Source: a virus
Direction: 5' to 3' (one strand)
Length of the DNA: 29,345 bases
IMG/VR virus record: IMGVR_UViG_3300035116_000011
Span: 1-29,345 of that record
The notes beneath the pieces were generated by a model. The model was not told the DNA's origin and ran no database searches. It worked only from the letters and a program-made list of their open reading frames with translations. Made by a program: the position numbers and the translations under genes. Positions 52 to 29,345 of the stretch are shown piece after piece (positions within the stretch are counted from its first letter, which is position 1; each line of letters begins with the position of its first letter).

Positions 52-315
52 ATGAAAAAGACCAAGCCCGATGTTCCCCCGGCCCCCGAACTTCCCCGCG
101 GCTTTCTGGACCAGAAACTGCTGACGCCCAAGCAGGCTGCGGAGAAGCTGCAACTCCATCCCGTGACTCTGGTCAACTGGCGGGTGCAGTCGCATCGCAC
201 CGGCAAGCTATGGGGTCCTCCCTGGCTCAAAATCGGCTGGAAGATCCGCTATCCGCAGCATCTGCTGGAGAAGTTTGTGCAGGATTCGCTGGTCGATCCC
301 AGTCAGGCGGCATGA
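52..315 (+). CDS. Excisionase-like helix-turn-helix protein
   Basis: An 87-aa basic protein of the HTH_17 / excisionase type. Residues about 22-72 follow the usual order: a 'LLTPKQAAEKL' helix, a recognition helix ('HPVTLVNWR'), then a wing containing 'GPPWLKIGWKIRYP' and a C-terminal helix ('HLLEKFV'). Such proteins bind DNA and often steer the partner integrase towards excision, or act as small regulators. It ends one base before the integrase start, so the two are translationally coupled. A GAGGT ribosome site lies 8 bases before the ATG. The segment before it is A/T-rich (TTGTTT at 2-7, GATAAG at 23-28) and could hold a promoter, but the window edge cuts the view. Its role as Xis rather than another regulator is inferred from the fold and position. 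Confidence 0.75.
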   Translation: MKKTKPDVPPAPELPRGFLDQKLLTPKQAAEKLQLHPVTLVNWRVQSHRTGKLWGPPWLKIGWKIRYPQHLLEKFVQDSLVDPSQAA

Positions 316-316
316 A

Positions 317-1387
317 ATGTCGGTGTACGAGCGCACGATCCGATTAGCCAACGGCGAGACAGTCACGCGCTGGTGCGTGGACTTCTTTCACCACGGCAAG
401 CGCATTCGCCGCACCTGCGGCCCCGGCTGCCACAGCGAGACGCGCGCCAAGGCTATAGAAGTTCAGGAGCGCCTGAAGCTGGAGCGCCAGGGCTCGCGCG
501 TATGGACGGGCCGGATTCCCAGCCTGAAGGATGCCGCGGAGCAGTTTCTGGAATCGGCCGCGGCGGCGCAGGAAGCGAAGAACATGGCCGCCAACACCCT
601 GCGCCACTACCGCAACGCCTGGCATGCCTGGCTGGCCCCCACGCCTCTGGCGCGCATGCGCCTCGACCGCATCACCAGCGGCATCATCCGCGAGGTGGAG
701 TTCCCCGGCGGCCCGTTCACCAGCAAGAACGCGCGCCAATGCCTGGGGCACATTCTGCGCTGGTGCGCGGAGGAGAAGGGCTACATCATCGCCGCGCCGC
801 GCATCCGCTCTACGCGGGTGGCGGGGCGCAAGATTCGCATCACGCCGGAAATCGAGTCGCAGTTGCGCCTGCACATGAAGCGCGACTGCAGCGACATCTT
901 CACCCTCATGCTGGATGCGGTGATGCGCAACTGCGAGGTGTTCGCGATGCAGTGGTCGCGGATCGACTGGGAGCGCCGCCAGTATGCGGTGGCGCGCAGC
1001 AAGTCGGCGGCCTCGGAGCGCACTATTCCATTAAGCGAGCGGGCGCTGGCCATGCTCAAGGGGCGCCGGGAATCGAACGAGTGCGAGTGGGTGTTTCCTT
1101 CCCGCATTGGGCGCTGCGGGCATGTGCAGACGATAGCTAAACAGTTCCGGGAAGCGCGGGCCGCCGCGGGCATCGATGCGAGCATCAAGCTCTACTGCGC
1201 GCGCCATACGGGAGCGAGCGAACTATCAGAAATGGGAGTTGACCTGCTGACCCTGCGCGAATTATTAGGTCACGAGGACATTTCGACGACCAACAAATAT
1301 CTGCACGGATCGGCGGACGGGGCGCGGGAAGCGATCAACTCGAAGCAGCGCACACGGACCGGGCTGAAGCTGGAGAAGCGAGCATGA
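317..1387 (+). CDS. int: Phage integrase, tyrosine recombinase
   Basis: A 356-aa tyrosine recombinase that would integrate and excise the phage at its att site. The N-terminal part (about 1-165) holds an arm-binding-like domain and a core-binding SAM-like domain. The catalytic domain shows Arg204 ('VMRNCEVFAM'), the beta-hairpin Lys229, the box 'LYCARHTGAS' with Arg296 and His297, His319 in 'LLGHEDIS', and the nucleophile Tyr328 in 'NKYLH'. The first His of the usual His-x-x-Arg is a Tyr (Tyr293), which is known among bacterial and phage integrases. An in-frame TTG lies further upstream at 275, but the ATG at 317 sits one base after the stop of the excisionase-like gene and begins a typical 'MSVYERT' N-terminus. 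The stop overlaps the next gene by ATGA. The likely attP lies about 740 bases downstream. Confidence 0.93.
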   Translation: MSVYERTIRLANGETVTRWCVDFFHHGKRIRRTCGPGCHSETRAKAIEVQERLKLERQGSRVWTGRIPSLKDAAEQFLESAAAAQEAKNMAANTLRHYRNAWHAWLAPTPLARMRLDRITSGIIREVEFPGGPFTSKNARQCLGHILRWCAEEKGYIIAAPRIRSTRVAGRKIRITPEIESQLRLHMKRDCSDIFTLMLDAVMRNCEVFAMQWSRIDWERRQYAVARSKSAASERTIPLSERALAMLKGRRESNECEWVFPSRIGRCGHVQTIAKQFREARAAAGIDASIKLYCARHTGASELSEMGVDLLTLRELLGHEDISTTNKYLHGSADGAREAINSKQRTRTGLKLEKRA

Positions 1388-2013
1388 TGGGGATTTACCA
1401 AGCCACTTTGTACGACCGTCCAACATGGGGCGATCCGCAGCCCGTCAGGTTCGACGGGCAAGAGGTATCGCGGGAGTTTGTGGCGGAAACGTCCAGCAAG
1501 GCGCGATATAAGTTTTATCTAGAACTAAAAGAGCACATCGACGATCTGCGTTTTCAGGATATCCGTGTCCATTCGTTGTGCCGTCAACCGCGTCAGGTAA
1601 TGCAGGACGGATGGGGGGAGCGCCTAAAGACGGTCAATGCCATCATTCGCGTGATCGGCTCTCATGGGCGGCATTTCCTGAGCGAGAACTCAGACAGGCG
1701 GACGCTAGTACCCGACCCGTTCTTTTCCTACTTCGGCGTGGATGGCCGCAACGAACTCTGGTATGTGGACCGCTACACGCGCAAGCCGATCCTTGTTCGC
1801 CATCGGGACTGGCCGGGATTCTCTGACGGAGGAACTCTTCGCAGCCTGATTCAACACTTTGCGCACTACATCGAGGTCGGGGCGGGCATAGTTACCGGAG
1901 CCTTTGGTCCGTGGCCTGAGTGGCGTTGTGGCGGCGACCCCTGGGGCTACGGAGGCGACGGCATGCAGAAAGTGCGCGCCGAAATAACAGCTCTGCTCGC
2001 CTTCCAAAGCTAG
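1384..2013 (+). CDS. Unknown protein coupled to integrase
   Basis: A 209-aa protein I do not recognise. Its ATG overlaps the integrase stop (ATGA), so it is the third gene of the excisionase-integrase operon. It is soluble and aromatic-rich, without a signal peptide or membrane helix. The middle (about 110-150) reads like a mixed alpha/beta domain ('FFSYFGVDGRNELWYVDRY', then 'KPILVRHRDWPGF'). The C-terminal third is Gly/Trp-rich ('FGPWPEWRCGGDPWGYGGDG'). Codon use matches its neighbours. The tight coupling suggests a role in lysogeny or in the integrated state, or simply carriage with the recombination module. No function is claimed. Confidence 0.75.
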   Translation: MMGIYQATLYDRPTWGDPQPVRFDGQEVSREFVAETSSKARYKFYLELKEHIDDLRFQDIRVHSLCRQPRQVMQDGWGERLKTVNAIIRVIGSHGRHFLSENSDRRTLVPDPFFSYFGVDGRNELWYVDRYTRKPILVRHRDWPGFSDGGTLRSLIQHFAHYIEVGAGIVTGAFGPWPEWRCGGDPWGYGGDGMQKVRAEITALLAFQS

Positions 2014-2046: not shown

Positions 2047-2065
2047 GTCACAGTATGGTCACAGC
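2047..2065 (+). repeat. Phased repeat pair, putative integrase arm-type sites (left)
   Basis: Two copies of GTCACAG start at 2047 and 2058, exactly 11 bp apart, so both face the same side of the helix. They share the core (G)YCACAG(Y) with the pair on the other side of the tRNA-like core. Lambda-type integrases bind short direct repeats of this kind in the arms of attP. Binding is inferred, not shown. Confidence 0.5.
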
Positions 2066-2124
2066 GGCGAAACGAGCGGGGAAGCAGAAAGCTCTAAGAT
2101 GGTGCAAACAAAGGGACATTTCGG

Positions 2125-2170
2125 AGCCGACGGTCAGAGTCGAACTGACGACCTGCTGATTACGAATCAT
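2125..2170 (-). other. attP core: 3' half of a tRNA-Thr(CGT) gene
   Basis: Read on the minus strand, this segment gives an anticodon loop TTCGTAA (anticodon CGT, 2166-2160), the 3' anticodon-stem strand TCAGC (2159-2155), a 5-nt variable loop, a perfect T arm (GTCAG, loop TTCGACT, CTGAC; 2149-2133), and a 7-nt 3' acceptor strand CGTCGGC (2132-2126) with one discriminator base (2125). The 5' half is missing: the bases beyond 2170 neither complete the anticodon stem nor form a D arm. Tyrosine integrases commonly use the 3' half of a tRNA gene as the crossover core, so the phage copy restores the host tRNA on insertion. Its place between int and the virion genes fits attP. It is not a functional tRNA gene. 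Confidence 0.75.
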
Positions 2171-2309
2171 TGCACCAAGAATGATATCGCTATAGCCATC
2201 CATATAGAAACGCTTAAAATAAAGCACTTAGCAGTTTACTCTCCTGATGCCCCATCGCAGTCGAATGTGGATTCAGCAATCCAAAGTGTATTCCTGCCAA
2301 AGATTGAAC

Positions 2310-2328
2310 GCCACAGTTACGCCACAGT
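2310..2328 (+). repeat. Phased repeat pair, putative integrase arm-type sites (right)
   Basis: Two copies of GCCACAGT start at 2310 and 2321, again 11 bp apart and in the same orientation as the GTCACAG pair at 2047. The two pairs flank the tRNA-like core asymmetrically, about 60 bp on one side and 140 bp on the other, like the unequal P and P' arms of lambda attP. The second copy is also part of a GCCAC-a-GTGGC palindrome. Confidence 0.5.
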
Positions 2329-3605: not shown

Positions 3606-3641
3606 GGGGCCGGCGTCCACCCGCCGGCCCCGCCTTGTTTT
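3606..3641 (+). terminator. Intrinsic terminator
   Basis: A perfect 10-bp G/C stem (GGGGCCGGCG at 3606-3615 pairing with CGCCGGCCCC at 3622-3631) with a 6-nt loop is followed by GCCTTGTTTTA. It closes the 2521-3565 transcription unit. The stop codon of the convergent minus-strand gene lies in the T-run, so the hairpin also sits just past the end of that gene, although there is no T-run in the minus direction. Confidence 0.8.
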
Positions 3642-4095
3642 AATATTCGTTCGTGTAGGTAGTGTTGCCGATGCTCTGCCTGACGGCGGTATGGCTGGAG
3701 CCGTCACCGCTGTAGATGGTGTCGTAGATGGTATTGCCGATGCGCTGCGAGGTGATGCTCGTATGGCCGCCATCGGAACCGTAGAGGTTGGTATAGGACG
3801 TGCCTCCGATCTGCTGGGTAGTACCGTTGTACGTCCCACCGCTGCTGTCCGAGCCGCTGTGGTAGGTGGTACTGCCGATGCGCTGGCTGGTCCCGTTGTA
3901 CCCGCCGTATGTATCGTTCCCGTTCAGATAGGTTGTGCCGCCGATCTGCTGCGCCGTGCCGGAACCGGAGTAGGCAGGGCCGCTGGTGTTGTAGTAGGTC
4001 GTGCCTCCGGTCTGCTGGGTGGTGGTGTTGTACTGGGCGAGCGCGGGAATCGCAGAGAGAGCGATCAAGGCTAAAGTGAAAAGGAAATTCTTCAA
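3640..4095 (-). CDS. Secreted tandem-repeat protein
   Basis: A 151-aa protein with a clear signal peptide: Lys-Asn, a hydrophobic core to about residue 17, and an Ala-Leu-Ala cleavage site before 'QYNTTT'. The mature part is six imperfect repeats of about 23 residues, each built round 'QQIGGTTY' or 'QRIGNTTY' with Gly/Ser/Asp/Asn/Tyr linkers. It is low in charge and rich in Thr, Gly and Tyr, as expected of an extracytoplasmic beta-repeat protein. The start is a TTG with AGGAGA 9 bases upstream. It is the last gene of a minus-strand operon opposed to the late genes and ends in a convergent terminator region. It is most likely a lysogeny cargo gene acting at the host surface or periplasm. Its partner is unknown. 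Confidence 0.8.
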   Translation of the reverse strand: MKNFLFTLALIALSAIPALAQYNTTTQQTGGTTYYNTSGPAYSGSGTAQQIGGTTYLNGNDTYGGYNGTSQRIGSTTYHSGSDSSGGTYNGTTQQIGGTSYTNLYGSDGGHTSITSQRIGNTIYDTIYSGDGSSHTAVRQSIGNTTYTNEY

Positions 4096-4189: not shown

Positions 4190-4357
4190 TTATGCGCTGA
4201 TGCGTTCGCGCTTGAACTTGCCCACGCGCTGGTCTGGTCTGTTCCACGCGGGGCTGCCGCACGAAGCGCAGCGCTTGGGCTCGCTGTCCGCGTGCCAGAC
4301 GTGGCCGCAGCGGTCGCAGGTGCAGCGCCAGCGGGTGACGGTTACGGCCTTCATCAT
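4190..4357 (-). CDS. Small zinc-ribbon protein, 55 aa
   Basis: A short gene: a minus-strand ATG at 4357 (with a second ATG directly after) and a TAA ending at 4190. The product has two Cys-x-x-Cys knuckles 12 residues apart ('CTCDRCGHVW' and 'CASCGSPAW'), a rubredoxin-like zinc ribbon, and a basic tail ('RVGKFKRERISA'). The start overlaps the stop of the coiled-coil gene (ATGA), and a strong GGAGGGGG precedes it, so it is the middle gene of a three-gene operon. Zinc ribbons of this size are common in phages and may bind nucleic acid or a host protein. The precise role is unknown. Confidence 0.8.
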   Translation of the reverse strand: MMKAVTVTRWRCTCDRCGHVWHADSEPKRCASCGSPAWNRPDQRVGKFKRERISA

Positions 4358-4563
4358 GCCCCCTCCTTGTTTTCGAGGTCCTGCACCCGCTCCTCCACAA
4401 CGGCCAGCCGCGCATTGAATCCCGTGGCGAATGCTTCATTGGTCCGGGACCGCGCCTCGATGCGCACAGCCCACTTGCGGAACTCTTTCAAGAGTGTAGT
4501 TTCAACCTGCTCGATGCGCTCCAGCAGTTCATTCTTCACTATTTGCAATTCATCGTCTGCCAC
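4354..4563 (-). CDS. Small coiled-coil protein, 69 aa
   Basis: A GTG start at 4563 with an AAGGAGA ribosome site 6 bases upstream. The product is almost wholly helical and charged. Heptad spacing is visible at residues about 6-30 ('LQIVKNELLERIEQVETTLLKEF') and again at 50-66 ('ARLAVVEERVQDLENK'), so it should form a coiled-coil oligomer in the cytoplasm. There is no membrane helix. It is the first gene of the minus-strand operon that continues through the zinc ribbon and the secreted repeat protein. It resembles in style the other small minus-strand coiled-coil genes at 15325, 25767 and 26046. Function unknown. Confidence 0.7.
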   Translation of the reverse strand: MADDELQIVKNELLERIEQVETTLLKEFRKWAVRIEARSRTNEAFATGFNARLAVVEERVQDLENKEGA

Positions 4564-5247: not shown

Positions 5248-5687
5248 TGCCAGCCGGTAGACCGACCGACTACAAGGCGGAATATGTTCAGCGCGTGGCG
5301 GAACTCGCGGCGAACGGTGCCACCGACATGGAAATCGCTGATGAGTTTGACGTTAGCGTTCGCACTCTCTACAGTTGGCGCGCTGTCCATCCTGAATTTC
5401 TACAAGCCTTAAAAGCTGGCAAAGAAATTGCAGACGAGCGAGTGGAACGTTCACTCTTTCAGCGTGCTACAGGCTATGAGCAGCAGACCGTGAAGATATT
5501 CATGCCTTCGGGTGCTGATAGCCCAATATTTGCTCCGTTCCGCGAAGTGATCGCACCGGACACAACGGCCTGCATCTTCTGGCTGAAGAATCGCAAGCCG
5601 AAGGAATGGCGCGACAAGTCAGAGCTTGAGGTTCCAGGGCTCGCATCGCTCGCGGACGTGATTGCAAAGGCTCGTAAGCGTGGATAA
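5247..5687 (+). CDS. terS: Terminase small subunit
   Basis: A 146-aa DNA-recognition subunit of the packaging motor. The N-terminal half holds a helix-turn-helix ('NGATDMEIADEFDVSVRTLYSWRAVHPEF', about residues 25-52) typical of this terminase small-subunit family. It is followed by a helical oligomerisation part ('LKAGKEIADERVERSLFQRATGY') and the conserved region ending 'TTACIFWLKNRKPKEWRDKSE'. It selects the packaging site on the concatemer and hands DNA to the large subunit. A GTG lies one codon before the ATG at 5247; I prefer the ATG, which overlaps the preceding stop. The large-subunit gene starts inside its 3' end. Confidence 0.9.
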   Translation: MPAGRPTDYKAEYVQRVAELAANGATDMEIADEFDVSVRTLYSWRAVHPEFLQALKAGKEIADERVERSLFQRATGYEQQTVKIFMPSGADSPIFAPFREVIAPDTTACIFWLKNRKPKEWRDKSELEVPGLASLADVIAKARKRG

Positions 5688-7173
5688 TCCTGAACTAGAA
5701 CTCGCGGAGGATATAGGCAGATTTACCGTCGATCCGCTCAGTTTCGTGCGCTATGCGTATCCTTGGCGCGAACCAAATAGCGAGCTGGCAGAATACGACG
5801 GTGCGCGCAAATGGCAGCGTGAAGTTCTGGAAACAATCGGCACCCATCTGCGCGGCCCTGATCGCTTCACTCCGCTGCTCTATGCGATTGCCAGCGGTCA
5901 CGGCGTCGGAAAATCGGCGCTAATAGCGATGATTACCGATTGGGCCATGAGCACCTGCGAGGACTGCCGGGTGGTGATGACCGCGAACACTGAGCCGCAG
6001 TTGCGCACCAAGACCTGGCCAGAAGTGAGCAAGTGGACGCATCTGGCTATCAACTCGCATTGGTGGAGCGTGACCGCAACCACCGTAAGCGTGCGCGAGA
6101 AGGCTCACGAGCGGCTGTGGCGCACCGATGCGATTGCCTGGAGCGAGAACAACACTGAGGCGTTTGCCGGCCTGCACAACAAAGGCAAGCGCATTGTCGT
6201 GATATTCGATGAAGGCTCGGCGATTGCGGACAAGGTCTGGGAAGTGACCGAAGGCGCATTGACGGATGAGCAAACGGAAATCATCTGGCTGGCATTCGGC
6301 AATCCCACGCGCAATACGGGCCGCTTCCGCGAATGCTTTGGCAAGTACAAGCACCGCTGGATCACTAAGCAGATTGACTCGCGCACAGTCGAGGGCACGA
6401 ACAAGGAGCAGATCGCCAAGTGGGTTGCGGACTATGGCGAGGATTCAGACTTCTGCCGCGTTCGCGTGCGCGGCGAGTTTCCGAGGGCAGGCGCAACCCA
6501 GTTCATAGGCGGCGACATAGTGTCCGGTGCTCGATCCCGCACGGTTGCGCCTTCAGGCTTCAAGGTGCTGGCTGTGGACGTGGCGCGCTTCGGCGACGAT
6601 CAGACAGTGTTAGGCATGCGGCAAGGCGGCCATCTGCGCATCCTGGCACGATTGCGCGGCCTGGACACGATGCAGGTAGCGGCGCGGGTCATGGAAGTGA
6701 TGCGCAACGAGCAGCCGCGGGCCACAATCATAGACGGTGATGGGCTCGGAGCTGGTGTGGTCGACTGCGTTCGGCACACGATGCGGGAGTGGTTTCCGGC
6801 TCATCCATTACATCGCCTGCAGGAGTTCCACGGCGGCAGTTCTCCGAACGATTCGAGCATGTTCTTCAATCGCCGCGCCGAGGTCTGGGGCATGATGCGC
6901 GAGTGGCTCAAGGAGGGCGACATTCCCGATGAGCCGGAGATTGAGACGGACCTTACCGGGCCTGAATACTACTTCTCGAGCAAGAATCAGATTCAGTTAG
7001 AGCGCAAAGAGGACATGAAGCGGCGCGGCCTGTCGAGCCCCGACGTGGGCGACATGCTGGCTATGTCATTTGCGGCCGCTCCTGCGGCGCTTGAGTATGA
7101 CGAGATGGCAACCGAGGCAGAAGCGGCCATCTTCGCGCATGCAGACAAGCGGTATCAAGAGGCGCGGCAGTGA
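5680..7173 (+). CDS. terL: Terminase large subunit (packaging ATPase-nuclease)
   Basis: A 497-aa motor protein of usual length. The N-terminal ATPase shows Walker A 'GHGVGKS' (73-79) and Walker B 'VVIFDE' (173-178, catalytic Glu178). The C-terminal RNase-H-fold nuclease shows the acidic residues expected: Asp300 ('LAVDVARFGDD'), Asp352 ('TIIDGDGLG') and Asp455/Asp458 ('PDVGDML'). It docks at the portal, cuts concatemers and pumps DNA into the prohead. The GTG at 5680 is chosen because AAAGG lies 9 bases upstream and overlap with terS is then small; a TTG at 5662 is an alternative. The gene ends with a 4-base overlap (GTGA) with the next. Confidence 0.95.
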   Translation: MDNPELELAEDIGRFTVDPLSFVRYAYPWREPNSELAEYDGARKWQREVLETIGTHLRGPDRFTPLLYAIASGHGVGKSALIAMITDWAMSTCEDCRVVMTANTEPQLRTKTWPEVSKWTHLAINSHWWSVTATTVSVREKAHERLWRTDAIAWSENNTEAFAGLHNKGKRIVVIFDEGSAIADKVWEVTEGALTDEQTEIIWLAFGNPTRNTGRFRECFGKYKHRWITKQIDSRTVEGTNKEQIAKWVADYGEDSDFCRVRVRGEFPRAGATQFIGGDIVSGARSRTVAPSGFKVLAVDVARFGDDQTVLGMRQGGHLRILARLRGLDTMQVAARVMEVMRNEQPRATIIDGDGLGAGVVDCVRHTMREWFPAHPLHRLQEFHGGSSPNDSSMFFNRRAEVWGMMREWLKEGDIPDEPEIETDLTGPEYYFSSKNQIQLERKEDMKRRGLSSPDVGDMLAMSFAAAPAALEYDEMATEAEAAIFAHADKRYQEARQ

Positions 7174-11058: not shown

Positions 11059-11502
11059 ATGCCAACCTTCCAGAAATGTGAAGTGGTGGATGCGTCGAAG
11101 TATGAAGGCCCGGCGCTGACGGTGGTCAATGACCAGCTGGGCGAGCAGGCGGCGCTGCCGGGCGATTACCTGCTGGGCACGGAGCGGGGCAAAATCCGCG
11201 TTATGGGTGCCAGGCAGTTCGAGGCGGAGTTCGTGGCGTACAGCAAGACTCCGTGCGATGACCAGTTGGCGGCGGCCAGGGCGGTGGTTGCCGACTTGAA
11301 AGGAAAGAGCGCCTCGCTGGCCGCCTCGAGCGCCGCGGCGGAGGCGGGTTTGTCTGCCGCGCAGGCGGAATTAGCGGCGGAAAAGGCGAAATTGGCTGAG
11401 TTGCAGGCAAAATACGATGCCCTGGCGTCGGCGGCGGCCCCCGCGGCGGCGCATGCGCAACCCGATGACGAAGCCAAAGACAAAAAGGCCGCCAAGAAGT
11501 AA
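11059..11502 (+). CDS. Two-part virion-associated protein with coiled coil
   Basis: A 147-aa protein. Residues 1-65 form a small beta domain with 'LPGDYLLGTERGKIRVMGARQFEAEFV', a pattern that recurs in short phage head-operon proteins. Residues about 72-125 are an Ala-rich coiled coil ('DDQLAAARAVVADLKGK' through 'ELAAEKAKLAELQAKYDAL'). The end is Lys-rich. The Ala-rich helix could make it a scaffold-like or linker protein. No catalytic motif is visible. Spacing to the preceding gene is three bases. Confidence 0.65.
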   Translation: MPTFQKCEVVDASKYEGPALTVVNDQLGEQAALPGDYLLGTERGKIRVMGARQFEAEFVAYSKTPCDDQLAAARAVVADLKGKSASLAASSAAAEAGLSAAQAELAAEKAKLAELQAKYDALASAAAPAAAHAQPDDEAKDKKAAKK

Positions 11503-11731: not shown

Positions 11732-12727
11732 ATGCACCCGTTGCTCCACATGATCATGCTTTTCGGCTTGCTTGATGGCGCGGATAGCGGCGTAAATGGC
11801 GCCGCGGTCATGGATGCGCCTCCCGCGGAGCCTGCAGGCTCGCCCAGTGAGCCTGTAACCCCGCAGGAACCGCCTGCGCCACCCGCAGAACCGCCTCCCG
11901 CCGATCCCAACGACCCCATGGCGGCCCTGCAGGCGGCGATGGACGCGCAGTTGGGCAAGGATGAGCCGGTTACGCCTCCAGCGACACCGGAGGCAGCCGC
12001 ACAGCCTCAGATTCCGCCCGAATTCGCGCAGGCGCTGCAGATTTCCGACTTTGTGAAGGAGCCGGCGCATGTCGAGCAGGCTATCAGGGCGGCGGACGAG
12101 GTTTGGAAGGTAGCCAGCGGCCAGGCCCCGGCCTCGAGTCTGCTGGAGGGCATGCGCGCGGCCAATCCCGAGGGATTCAAGGCGGTTATCGGCGACCTGA
12201 TTCCGTACATCGAGCAGATCACCGGGCGGGCATTCACCAATCAGCCGCCTTCGCCTCCCGACCCCAACCGGGCGCGCCTCGATGCGATTGAGAAGCGGTT
12301 TGCGGATCAGGAGACGGAACGCAGGCAGTCGGCGTACCGGGAGCAGGTGCAGGCGGCCAACAAGATCGCCACCGACTTCATCGGCAATTCGATCAAGGGA
12401 ACCTTTGCCGAAGGGCAGGATGCGCGCTTCTATGCGCTGCTGGCGTCCAAACTGGATGTAAGCGATGAGGGCATGCGGCAACTGCTCGGCGGCAATATCA
12501 AGCCGCTGGAAAAGGCTATCCGCGAAGTTAAGGCCGAGGAAGTCAGGGCATGGAAGGCTTACGGCGAAAACGTGAAAAAGCAGCAGCACACCCTGGCCAA
12601 TGCGGTTCCCGCCGTCAAGGGCGGCAATGGGGCAAGGCCGCCCGCACCTGATTCCATGAAGGCGCTGCCGGGGGAGACGACCTCGCAGGCGGTGACGAGA
12701 CTTTTGCAGGGCCGATCCGGCCCGTAA
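11732..12727 (+). CDS. Putative capsid scaffolding protein
   Basis: A 331-aa acidic, largely helical protein directly upstream of the coat gene, which is the scaffold position. Residues about 28-90 are disordered and very rich in Pro/Ala/Glu. Residues about 95-260 are helical ('FAQALQISDFVKEPAHVEQAIRAADEVWKV', then 'RLDAIEKRFADQETERRQSAYREQVQAANK'). The C-terminus is basic ('KAYGENVKKQQHTL' and 'SQAVTRLLQGRSGP'), where scaffolds usually contact the coat protein. GGAGG lies before the ATG. The first dozen residues are hydrophobic, which is odd for a scaffold, so an internal start such as the Met at residue 27 cannot be ruled out. Confidence 0.65.
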   Translation: MHPLLHMIMLFGLLDGADSGVNGAAVMDAPPAEPAGSPSEPVTPQEPPAPPAEPPPADPNDPMAALQAAMDAQLGKDEPVTPPATPEAAAQPQIPPEFAQALQISDFVKEPAHVEQAIRAADEVWKVASGQAPASSLLEGMRAANPEGFKAVIGDLIPYIEQITGRAFTNQPPSPPDPNRARLDAIEKRFADQETERRQSAYREQVQAANKIATDFIGNSIKGTFAEGQDARFYALLASKLDVSDEGMRQLLGGNIKPLEKAIREVKAEEVRAWKAYGENVKKQQHTLANAVPAVKGGNGARPPAPDSMKALPGETTSQAVTRLLQGRSGP

Positions 12728-12852: not shown

Positions 12853-14106
12853 GTGGCAGATGCTAATACCATCACGAGGATTGGGGGCATCCTCAAGAAT
12901 GTCTATGGCCCCAAAATCGAGGAGCAGCAGAATAAGACCGCTGTCCTCCGCACCCGTTACGGAAAGGCCGATAACGAGTATGTCCGGTCCATGGCCGGCG
13001 ATCACTTCGAATTCCCGGCCAGGATCGGCGGCAACCGCGCCGGCGTGGCCCCGGCCGCTTCCGACGACGCGCTGCCGGTAGCAGGACGCCAGCAGGAGAA
13101 GAAGTTCAGCGTCTTCGACCGCGGCTATGTGGCCGTCATCAAGATGTTCGAGAAGGACATCCTGAACTCGGAGTCCAATCCGCAGGCGTTCGCCAACCAC
13201 CAGACTAACGAAATGACGCAGATCGTTACCGACACCGAGAAGGTCATTAACATTGACATCGCGGCCGGCGACGGCTCGGGCATTCTCGGCCTGGCGGCCA
13301 GCGGCACGGCCTCGGCCACCCAAACGCTGACGGTCAGCACCGCTTACGGCGGCTTCGGCTCGCGCTACATTCAGGTGGGCGACGTGGTGGACTTCTACAG
13401 CGCCAACCTCGTCACTAGCCGCTCGGCGGGCGCGGGGCTCACGGTCAACTCCATCACCCCATCGGCGGCGGGCGGGCCGGCGACGGTGGTGCTGTCGGCC
13501 TCGGTCACCACCACCACGGGCGATGTGCTGGTGCGCGGCGCGGGGCGCGTCAATAAGTCCTATATGGGGCTCTACGGCGCGACCAACAACCAGAATGTGA
13601 CCTTCCAGGGGCTGGCCACCGGCACGTATACGCTGCTGCAGTCCAACCTGATCGCGGCGGCGGGCAACTACCTCAACGAAGGCTATCTGCAGCAACTAGT
13701 CTCCGCCATCAACGTGGCCTCGGGCGAGGACATGGACGAGTTCGTGGCCTCGCATGCGCAGTTCGACGTGTACGAGGCGCTGGGGTTCGCGCAGAAGCGC
13801 TTTACCGACTCCACTATGGACAAGGGATACGAAACGCTCACGTTCAAAGGCAAGAAGTTTGTCAAGGATGTGGATGTTCCGCCTGCCGTCATCTATGGCA
13901 TCAAGCGCGACACGGTAAAGTTCGGGCAGGTCGCAGGGCTCAACTTCTCGGAGCTGGACGGCGGGGTGCTGAAGTGGGTTCCGGGGTTCGCGGCATACAC
14001 CGCGTATATGCGCGAGTATGGCAATTTTGTCTACACACATCCTAATCAACTAGGGTGCATCGGCGGGCTCGGATACAACACGTCCAGCACCGCCTACACG
14101 CGCTGA
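12853..14106 (+). CDS. Major capsid protein
   Basis: A 417-aa HK97-fold coat protein. The N-terminal arm and E-loop part ('LRTRYGKADNEYVRSMAGDHFEFPARIGGNRAGVAPA') is followed by spine-helix sequence with 'FDRGYVAVIKMFEKDI' and 'QTNEMTQIVTDTEKVINIDIAAGDGSG'. A Gly/Ser/Thr-rich beta insertion occupies about 155-232 ('RYIQVGDVVDFYSANL' to 'GDVLVRGAGRV'). Then comes the A-domain with 'DMDEFVASHAQFDVYEALGFAQKRFTDS' and a C-terminal beta part. The frame is open from 12787, but the GTG at 12853 has AAGGAG 7 bases before it and gives the natural 'MADANTITRIGG' start. It follows the scaffold gene and is closed by an intrinsic terminator. Confidence 0.88.
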   Translation: MADANTITRIGGILKNVYGPKIEEQQNKTAVLRTRYGKADNEYVRSMAGDHFEFPARIGGNRAGVAPAASDDALPVAGRQQEKKFSVFDRGYVAVIKMFEKDILNSESNPQAFANHQTNEMTQIVTDTEKVINIDIAAGDGSGILGLAASGTASATQTLTVSTAYGGFGSRYIQVGDVVDFYSANLVTSRSAGAGLTVNSITPSAAGGPATVVLSASVTTTTGDVLVRGAGRVNKSYMGLYGATNNQNVTFQGLATGTYTLLQSNLIAAAGNYLNEGYLQQLVSAINVASGEDMDEFVASHAQFDVYEALGFAQKRFTDSTMDKGYETLTFKGKKFVKDVDVPPAVIYGIKRDTVKFGQVAGLNFSELDGGVLKWVPGFAAYTAYMREYGNFVYTHPNQLGCIGGLGYNTSSTAYTR

Positions 14107-14112
14107 GCTTCT

Positions 14113-14149
14113 GGGGGGGACCGGTTTGCAGGCCGGCCCCCATTTTTTC
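14113..14149 (+). terminator. Intrinsic terminator after the coat gene
   Basis: A G-run (14113-14119) and CCGG (14121-14124) pair with CCGG (14133-14136) and CCCCC (14137-14141), with a small bulge and an 8-nt loop, followed by ATTTTTT (14142-14148). It begins a few bases after the coat stop codon. It would let the coat message accumulate separately from the tail genes, which would then depend on read-through or a further promoter. Confidence 0.8.
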
Positions 14150-27069: not shown

Positions 27070-29345
27070 ATGCGCAGACTGGTCTGGATTGCCGTGACTA
27101 TGATCGCTCTACCGATTTGGGCGCAGACGCCCCCGCCGACCATGACGCAGTACACGGGAACGGTGCGCGACCTGACCGGCGCGGTTGTCACATCTGGCCG
27201 TATCACCTGGCAGACCAATGCCCCGGCCGGCGGAGCAATCGCCGGGACAGGCTCATTCGTCTCTACCACGGTCAGCTGCCAGATCAACGCCACAGGCAAC
27301 CCCGTCGCCTCGTCCGATGGCACCAGCCCCTGCCAGATCGTAAATAATACGGCTTTGACGCCCACCGGCACGTCCTACAAAATCTGCATTCAGGCATACA
27401 ATGCGCAGCCGGGTTCCTGTTTCAACAGCTTCGCCGTCGGCGGAACCGTTGACATTTCCACCATCGTGCCTACGCCGACCACGCAGCCCTATTACGGAAC
27501 CCCTGGCTCAGCGATGGGTCCACTAGGACCAACCGGACCAACCGGACCCATTGGACCCACCGGCCCTCCTGGACCGATAGGGCCAATAGGGCCAAGCGGC
27601 GGCCCTCCTGGACCGACAGGGCCAACGGGTCCAAGCGGACCTCCAGGCGGATCGCTTAGTTATCCTGGCGTAGTCTCCGATGGCTCCAACGGCATGATGG
27701 CGTCCAGTGGTGGATTCACCGGGCAGCAGATCGGAGCCCTACGCTACGCTTCACAGTATGGTGACAAGAGCACCAACGGCATCGGCAATTGTCTAGCTGG
27801 GACCGGGAACACTTGTATAGCTGATCCGACCTACGGCTTAACGGAGCAGCCTACTTGGAATAGTTTTCCTCCCGGCCCCAATCATCTTACCGATCTTCGT
27901 TTGAACGTGACCGGCAACACCTATTCCGATTGGACACAATCTAGTGGACTTGTGCCCGCGCAGACTCTCACTTGCCTTAATAAACTCAACAACTCTCGCG
28001 CTTTCTGCAATCAGATCTACCATATGGATACTGCGACTGGTTTTAGTCTCGGCTCTGGCGGCGTACAAATAGGACCAGCCAATTGGCATATTGATGTTGC
28101 CAATGCTGGCAGCCATGTTACATACGCCGCCGGGATTTCAGAGGCGACGACTTGGTCGCATATAAAGACGGGAGTCGGAGATAACGTTGTGGAGTATCTC
28201 TACAACTGGGGGTGGGGAGGACGTATATCCGGGTCTGATGAAGGAACTAAGGCGTTTGCGGCGCAGAATAACGAGTACAACTATTTTTATGAAGGAAGAG
28301 TTACAAGCGGAGCGGGGACTGGTCCTACTCAGCTTATTACTTCGCCGGTATTTACAGGATCAGGAACTAATCCAAATGGCATTCCTATGCCGGGGTCTTT
28401 ACAAGGGGTGGGTCAGAGGATTATTGACACCACGGCAGGTGCGTCTTACAGTGGACACTTCACCAACATAAATACGTCGGGCTGTGTTGCAACCAGTTGT
28501 TCGAATGTGACGGTGGATTTTGCAGTTCCAGTTTCAAATGCTTGGGGTACGCAAGTCGGTGATGTGCTCACACCAATTAATACAACCTGTTTTTACTCAG
28601 CCTCTTCCCTTAATTCTGTAGCGAATGCAAGCGGAGGTTCTACGGTCTACACTGGTACGATTGTGGGCGGCGGCAGCACCTCACAAACGGGATGCGCAGT
28701 AACGATTGCGGGATTCTCGACCGGTGCTAATAATGGAACGTTCACCGTTTCTGCTTCCACCCCGACAACCATCACAGTAAACAATGCCAGTGGCACATCT
28801 GAAAGCGCCAGTGCAACCGAGAGCATAATCCCATTTGCAACCCTAAGGTCTGTAAACATCTCCAACGTGGGCGGAACGGGGTTTGATACTACTCATACGA
28901 TCTGTTTTGATTCTCAGTTCCACGAGTTTACAAAGCCAGTTTCAGTTACCAACCCCACCGGCCCTACCGCCACGCTCGTCATACCGCTCAGACGCGCTCA
29001 CGCAGCCGGAGCATGGATCATGCAGGGCGGTGCGTGTGGATATGGCGGTGAAGCGACAGCCTACAACGTTGCCGGTGGCGCTGGAGAGACTATCCGCTAT
29101 CTTTGGGATGTGATCGGGTCGACCGCAACCGATACGATTCAAGCGGTGATTTATTCTGGGGCTACAATTGAACAGGGTCTGCCGCCTATAGTCTCACAAG
29201 ACTATGGAAGCTTCAACATATCCAATCTCAGTAATAGTGGTACTACAGTTTATGGAACTTACGTGAGCGTAGGAACGTTTGTATCTGCGCCATACAGTGT
29301 ATTAAATAAAGGTTCTATGCTTATAGCTGGAGCTAGCGACTCGGC
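27070..29345 (+). CDS. Secreted-type fibre protein with collagen-like hinge (3' end outside window)
   Basis: The frame opens at an ATG (GGGAG 5 bases upstream) and has no stop up to the window edge, giving at least 758 residues. It starts with a signal peptide (Arg-Arg, hydrophobic '[15 protein letters not shown]', then Gln-Thr). An N-terminal beta domain (about 27-145) has '[20 protein letters not shown]', similar to Ig-like regulatory domains. Residues 150-194 are collagen-like Gly-Pro-x triplets with one break. The remainder is a long Gly/Thr/Ser/Asn-rich beta region with scattered Cys, like fibre shafts and receptor-binding heads. Codons before the hinge are G/C-ending like the rest of the window, whereas after it many end in A or T. 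It could be a tail fibre, or a host-surface protein made by the lysogen. Confidence 0.72.
27562..27639 (+). repeat. 39-bp tandem duplication in the collagen-like segment
   Basis: Two adjacent 39-bp units (27562-27600 and 27601-27639) are alike except at a handful of bases, mostly third positions, and encode about four Gly-x-y triplets each. Further, shorter repeats (GGACCAACC and variants) lie just before. The segment is prone to expansion, contraction and recombination. Confidence 0.8.

Follow-up and report, generated by a model that had tools for sequence, protein, structure and literature searches.

A putative attP built on half of a tRNA-Thr(CGT) gene, with paired arm-type repeats, in a temperate tailed phage with a probable host among the Acidobacteriota

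The DNA analysed here, called the window, is a viral contig of 29,345 bp (IMG/VR record IMGVR_UViG_3300035116_000011) that has no end repeat. Its region 2047-2328 is very probably the attP of a temperate tailed soil phage, the host of which probably belongs to the Acidobacteriota (Terriglobia); the phage integrase (Int) would dock on paired arm sites. The original prediction had called this region a complete attP architecture. The attP, its tRNA core and the putative arm sites are upheld by the match to host genes, the layout of a related phage, the predicted Int and the finding of occupied sites in bacterial genomes, but "complete" was too strong, as we infer the crossover and the binding of Int, IHF and Xis.

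The putative attP lies in the interval 2013-2521, to the right of a phage open reading frame of unknown function. Its core (2123-2169, minus strand) is the 3′ half of a tRNA-Thr(CGT) gene, identical over exactly 47 bp to the tRNA-Thr(CGT) genes of two bacterial genomes, L007 and L008. On the minus strand, it begins in the anticodon stem, at its 5′ arm, and extends through the discriminator T to the second base of CCA, with the anticodon loop at 2160-2166 and the anticodon at 2162-2164. A tRNA-Thr(CGT) half had been placed at 2125-2170, which is right to within one or two bases. ARAGORN called no tRNA in the window, as would be expected of half a gene, and Rfam gave no match in the att region. 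A further copy of the 45-bp segment on the contig had been named as a sign against attP; we searched for one, and no second copy of the core was found within the contig.

Each side of the core carries an exact direct repeat with a lag of 11 bp, and all four copies lie on the plus strand, confirming the paired, phased and same-facing arrangement initially described. On the left, GTCACAG occurs at 2047-2053 and 2058-2064, with offsets of -76 and -65 from position 2123. On the right, the 10-bp repeat ACGCCACAGT, which includes the GCCACAGT of the original prediction, occurs at 2308-2317 and 2319-2328, placing the motif GCCACAG at +187 and +198. Each flank was put through 5000 dinucleotide-preserving shuffles, which we scored for exact repeats of at least 7 bp at lag 11. 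They arose in 1.0% of left and 1.2% of right shuffles, in both flanks together in 0.02%, and in both flanks with a shared 5-mer in none of the 5000. Only one other constellation with the same lag and a shared 5-mer exists in the window, namely GC-rich coding repeats at 11364/11431. We take the four repeats to be putative Int arm-type sites, to which the protein would bind. Between the core and the right arm, at +95, lies a candidate IHF/HU-like bend site, AATAAAGCACTTA (2218-2230, plus strand), with one mismatch to WATCAANNNNTTR; the background frequency of such matches is 0.41 per kb.

The left end of the window encodes the proteins expected to act at such a site. Int is a tyrosine integrase of 356 residues (317-1387, plus strand; Pfam Phage_integrase, 2.6e-26; phrog_1, 3.5e-49). 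A putative excisionase gene of the HTH_17/MerR-like type (52-315, plus strand) lies directly upstream of int; its product matches phrog_66, "excisionase and transcriptional regulator" (E=1.9e-4), and Pfam HTH_17 at 25.1 bits, under the 27-bit cut-off (E=2e-5). The open reading frame between int and the att interval (1384-2013, plus strand) matches phrog_23101, of unknown function (E=5e-16). The predicted domains of Int are an arm-binding β-β-β-α domain at residues 3-57, a helical core-binding domain at 70-154 and a catalytic domain at 177-347. An AlphaFold2 model built from a ten-sequence alignment has moderate overall confidence (mean pLDDT 77.9, pTM 0.53); its N-terminal domain comprises strands 3-9, 15-25 and 28-33 and helix 41-57, with block pLDDT values of 69-90. 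Foldseek matched the model to XerA, Tn1549 Int and full-length, core-site-bound lambda Int (1z1b), the last aligned over almost the full length. Int is thus predicted to be heterobivalent and lambda-like with an arm-binding fold, and a protein with arm-binding, core-binding and catalytic domains would need separate arm sites. Among the phage records searched, no match covered 80% of Int and all matches were below 60% identity; the virus group is one without close relatives in those records.

The most informative comparison is with a diverged relative, L003 (IMGVR_UViG_3300005436_000028; whole contig, L030 and L031), whose Int is 57% and whose portal protein is 86% identical to those of the window phage. 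A tRNA-Thr half is likewise present at the L003 attachment site; its T arm differs from that of the window. The two phages have in common an invariant 24-mer, CTGCTGATTACGAATCATTGCACC, of which 7 bases are non-tRNA. They also share, in part, one short box on either side of the core. In the window, TGGTGCAA (2100-2107, plus strand) is a perfect inverted match to the non-tRNA sequence TTGCACCA (2170-2177, plus strand); in L003, TTGCACC is kept, as is TGCAA at the same spacing. We considered that the 8-bp inverted repeat TGGTGCAA/TTGCACCA might form a stem closing a tRNA-like fold and dropped the idea: L003 retains just TGCAA/TTGCA, and a protein-binding reading is therefore preferred. Next to the anticodon loop, on its phage side, TTGCACCA likely completes a core-type site for Int, and TGGTGCAA may be contacted by Int or Xis. 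The identity block begins at the anticodon stem, and the 24 bp around it, non-tRNA bases included, are invariant where the T arms differ; the crossover may lie at the anticodon loop, as in anticodon-centred tDNA sites.

The arm motifs of L003 are spelled differently and hold nearly the same positions: CCCACAA, CCCACAG and CCCACAA at -65, +188 and +199, against -65, +187 and +198 in the window. The outer left site of the window (-76) was not found in L003. A probability of 7e-9 was obtained for the three coinciding positions, a figure that is not a formal test because the motif was widened after both phages had been viewed; the layout comparison itself rests on these two phages. Within 300 bp of the L003 site, the sole match to WATCAANNNNTTR, again with one mismatch, also lies at +95. 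The remaining flanks of the two phages have diverged to near random identity (29/100 bases on the left), and conservation of only these att elements amid diverged flanks argues that they are functional.

Left of its attachment site, L003 carries genes for a DnaB-like helicase, a RecE-like exonuclease and Erf, and on the right it carries virion genes. With phage genes on both sides, the L003 site is therefore an attP and not an attL or attR. In the window as well, judged by gene content, the core has phage DNA to its left and to its right, with terminase, portal and major head protein genes from 5662 onward. The window terminase (5662-7173) has no match in L030 or L031 despite the 86% identity of the portal proteins, which suggests an exchange of the packaging-gene module. 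Besides the integrase gene, L030 has a ParA-like gene (11868-12482) and a ParB-like/DNA methyltransferase gene (13289-14131) near its attP.

A contig from another metagenome, L005, is identical to the window through the att region. Over 7,965 aligned bases the two show no mismatch, and their sole difference is a 34-bp segment (window 4343-4376) absent from L005. Both contigs begin just upstream of xis, at most 42 bp apart; the genome may end here, or the junction may be a variable one. A scan with the portal protein retrieved further contigs of the same phage, none of which extends to attP. In a wider att scan with CTGATTACGAATCATTGC, the matches in L089 and L090 were set aside as chance matches in coding sequence, as they had no integrase match or paired arm motifs.

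The host was sought with a 45-bp exact core probe in a collection of 84,980 species genomes. Only three of these matched, and all three are Acidobacteriota MAGs. L007 (Acidobacteriaceae) and L008 (Terracidiphilus) have an intact tRNA-Thr(CGT) gene at the match, which provides the host gene called for by the original prediction. The L006 match is half a gene, bordered to one side by a tyrosine integrase gene and to the other by chromosomal genes, among them a relA/spoT-like open reading frame; by its context it is one boundary of a different prophage inserted into this tRNA gene. Of 399 Terriglobia genomes sampled, 118 contain the sequence CTGCTGATTACGAATCA. G331 has two copies 38.1 kb apart on one contig, one in an intact and one in a half tRNA-Thr(CGT) gene, and between them lie genes for portal, major head, tape measure, tail fiber and integrase-like proteins. 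A tyrosine integrase gene of G152 ends about 20 bp from an intact tRNA-Thr gene, and a half copy lies on a different contig. The prophages in G331, G152 and L006 thus identify the predicted attB as a gene used by phages in Terriglobia. The expectation of prophages bounded by the repeat was borne out by G331 and not by a prophage of the window phage itself. The capsid protein of the window phage had no relative among the 399 sampled Terriglobia genomes, and as no prophage of its virion type was found, the exact host is inferred. The core match suggests that the phage probably infects Acidobacteriota of the class Terriglobia. Relatives of Int in Terriglobia show a similar association with tRNA genes: at 7 of 14 loci, the integrase gene lies tail-to-tail with an intact tRNA gene, 9-74 bp from its 3′ end, these tRNAs being Arg, Glu, Lys or Met.

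These elements suggest how integration might proceed. The N-terminal domains of Int would dock on the left (2047-2064) and right (2308-2328) arm pairs, and its core-binding and catalytic domains would act at the anticodon loop, at about 2156-2175. An IHF/HU-like protein that bends the DNA at 2218-2230 would bring core and right arm together. When attP recombines with the host tRNA-Thr(CGT) gene, the host 3′ half would be exchanged for the identical copy of the phage, so that the junction next to int would carry an intact tRNA gene and the opposite junction a remnant of the 3′ half. Xis (52-315) would drive excision. When we joined window and host sequences in silico, the int side gave an intact tRNA-Thr(CGT) and the far side nothing that could be recognised, the same arrangement as at the tail-to-tail Int/tRNA loci in Terriglobia. 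The rebuilt gene ends in TCCG because the phage carries CCG (window 2119-2125) where the host encodes CCA, its own end being TCCA, an unusual outcome; L003 retains CCA. A two-part idea follows that we hold only tentatively and consider doubtful as a whole: that the Int N-terminal domains and arm sites co-evolve within a frozen intasome geometry, as the spelling shifts from GTCACAG/GCCACAG to CCCACAR with positions fixed within 1 bp, and that the tRNA-Thr(CGT) of the lysogen, its CCA changed to CCG, relies on 3′ trimming and CCA addition.

Other readings of the region were weighed. The site could be an attP in which one or both repeat pairs are bound by Xis or a regulator and are not Int arm sites. 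Excisionases do bind short direct repeats with a spacing near 10-13 bp in attP arms, and a putative xis gene is present. We nevertheless consider this improbable, because Xis sites are usually confined to one arm whereas related repeat pairs lie here on both sides of the core at conserved offsets, and because the predicted arm-binding domain of Int needs such sites.

Half tRNA genes also mark prophage ends, for example in L006, L073 and L076, and the one in the window might be an attL or attR belonging to an integrated prophage, or come from an assembly made at a prophage edge. The original prediction had argued for attP from the position of int on the left and of the virion genes on the right; its conclusion stands, but the argument is weak alone. 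An attP is better supported because the L003 site is phage-flanked, the window has neither host DNA nor a second core copy, and L005, from a separate metagenome, is identical through the att region, all of which makes an attL or attR very unlikely. The claim that the molecule is not integrated is very likely correct as well; it is not proven, since an attP junction is possible inside a tandem dilysogen. That the tRNA half is a chance or relic fragment unrelated to integration would agree with the lack of a tRNA call in the window. It hardly deserves credence in view of the 47-bp exact host match, the adjacent int and xis genes, the paired repeats and a layout kept in the diverged L003.

Reading the region as an attP marks the virus as temperate, and the exact 45-bp tRNA match would assign a virus seen only in metagenomes to a host clade. 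It also yields a precise attB prediction, a tRNA-Thr(CGT) gene used by other Terriglobia prophages, and the int-attP cassette offers a candidate integration vector to try in cultured Acidobacteriota. Two other features of the window were observed. Between the integration and packaging modules, an open reading frame (3640-4095, minus strand) encodes a putative secreted repeat protein, which begins like a signal peptide and contains repeated G-T-T-Y/Q-x-I-G motifs. Near the right end (27561-27638), a 39-bp tandem repeat would code for collagen-like G-P-x residues, perhaps in a tail fibre gene.

The mechanism and architecture are classical, and what is new is a further example in a poorly known phage group. 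Lambda resembles the window phage in its heterobivalent Int, predicted here, in arms that flank the core and in an IHF site, a candidate here. Unlike the predicted target of the window phage, the lambda attB lies outside tRNA genes; lambda has five arm sites, unequally distributed. The attP of Salmonella phage P22 is similar in its tyrosine Int and in the use of a tRNA-Thr gene as attB, in a different host phylum. The anticodon of that gene, thrW, is CGU, and the P22 core is about 46 bp. P22, ST104 and ST64T all target thrW (PMC2629481). Paired arm-type repeats around a tRNA or tmRNA core are described in mycobacteriophages, the pairs of L5 and Giles being in direct orientation (PMC3203893), and the cores of Tweety and Pixie are 47 bp long (PMC2884959, PMC3203893). 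L5, Giles and the cluster K phages CrimD and Pixie share with the window a tRNA or tmRNA core between arm-repeat pairs, with a different tRNA. The order also differs: attP precedes int (5′) in Tweety and the cluster K1 phages and follows it (3′) in the window, where an additional open reading frame separates the two. The Islander collection of tDNA islands comprises 2083 of class A, which are anticodon-centred, and 3760 with 3′ fragments (PMC4383910). Class A islands are like the window in their 3′ tDNA fragment and in an anticodon-centred site, a proposed one here, with an intact tDNA and a fragment after integration, as predicted for the window phage; those islands are integrated, whereas the window presents the putative attP within a phage contig.
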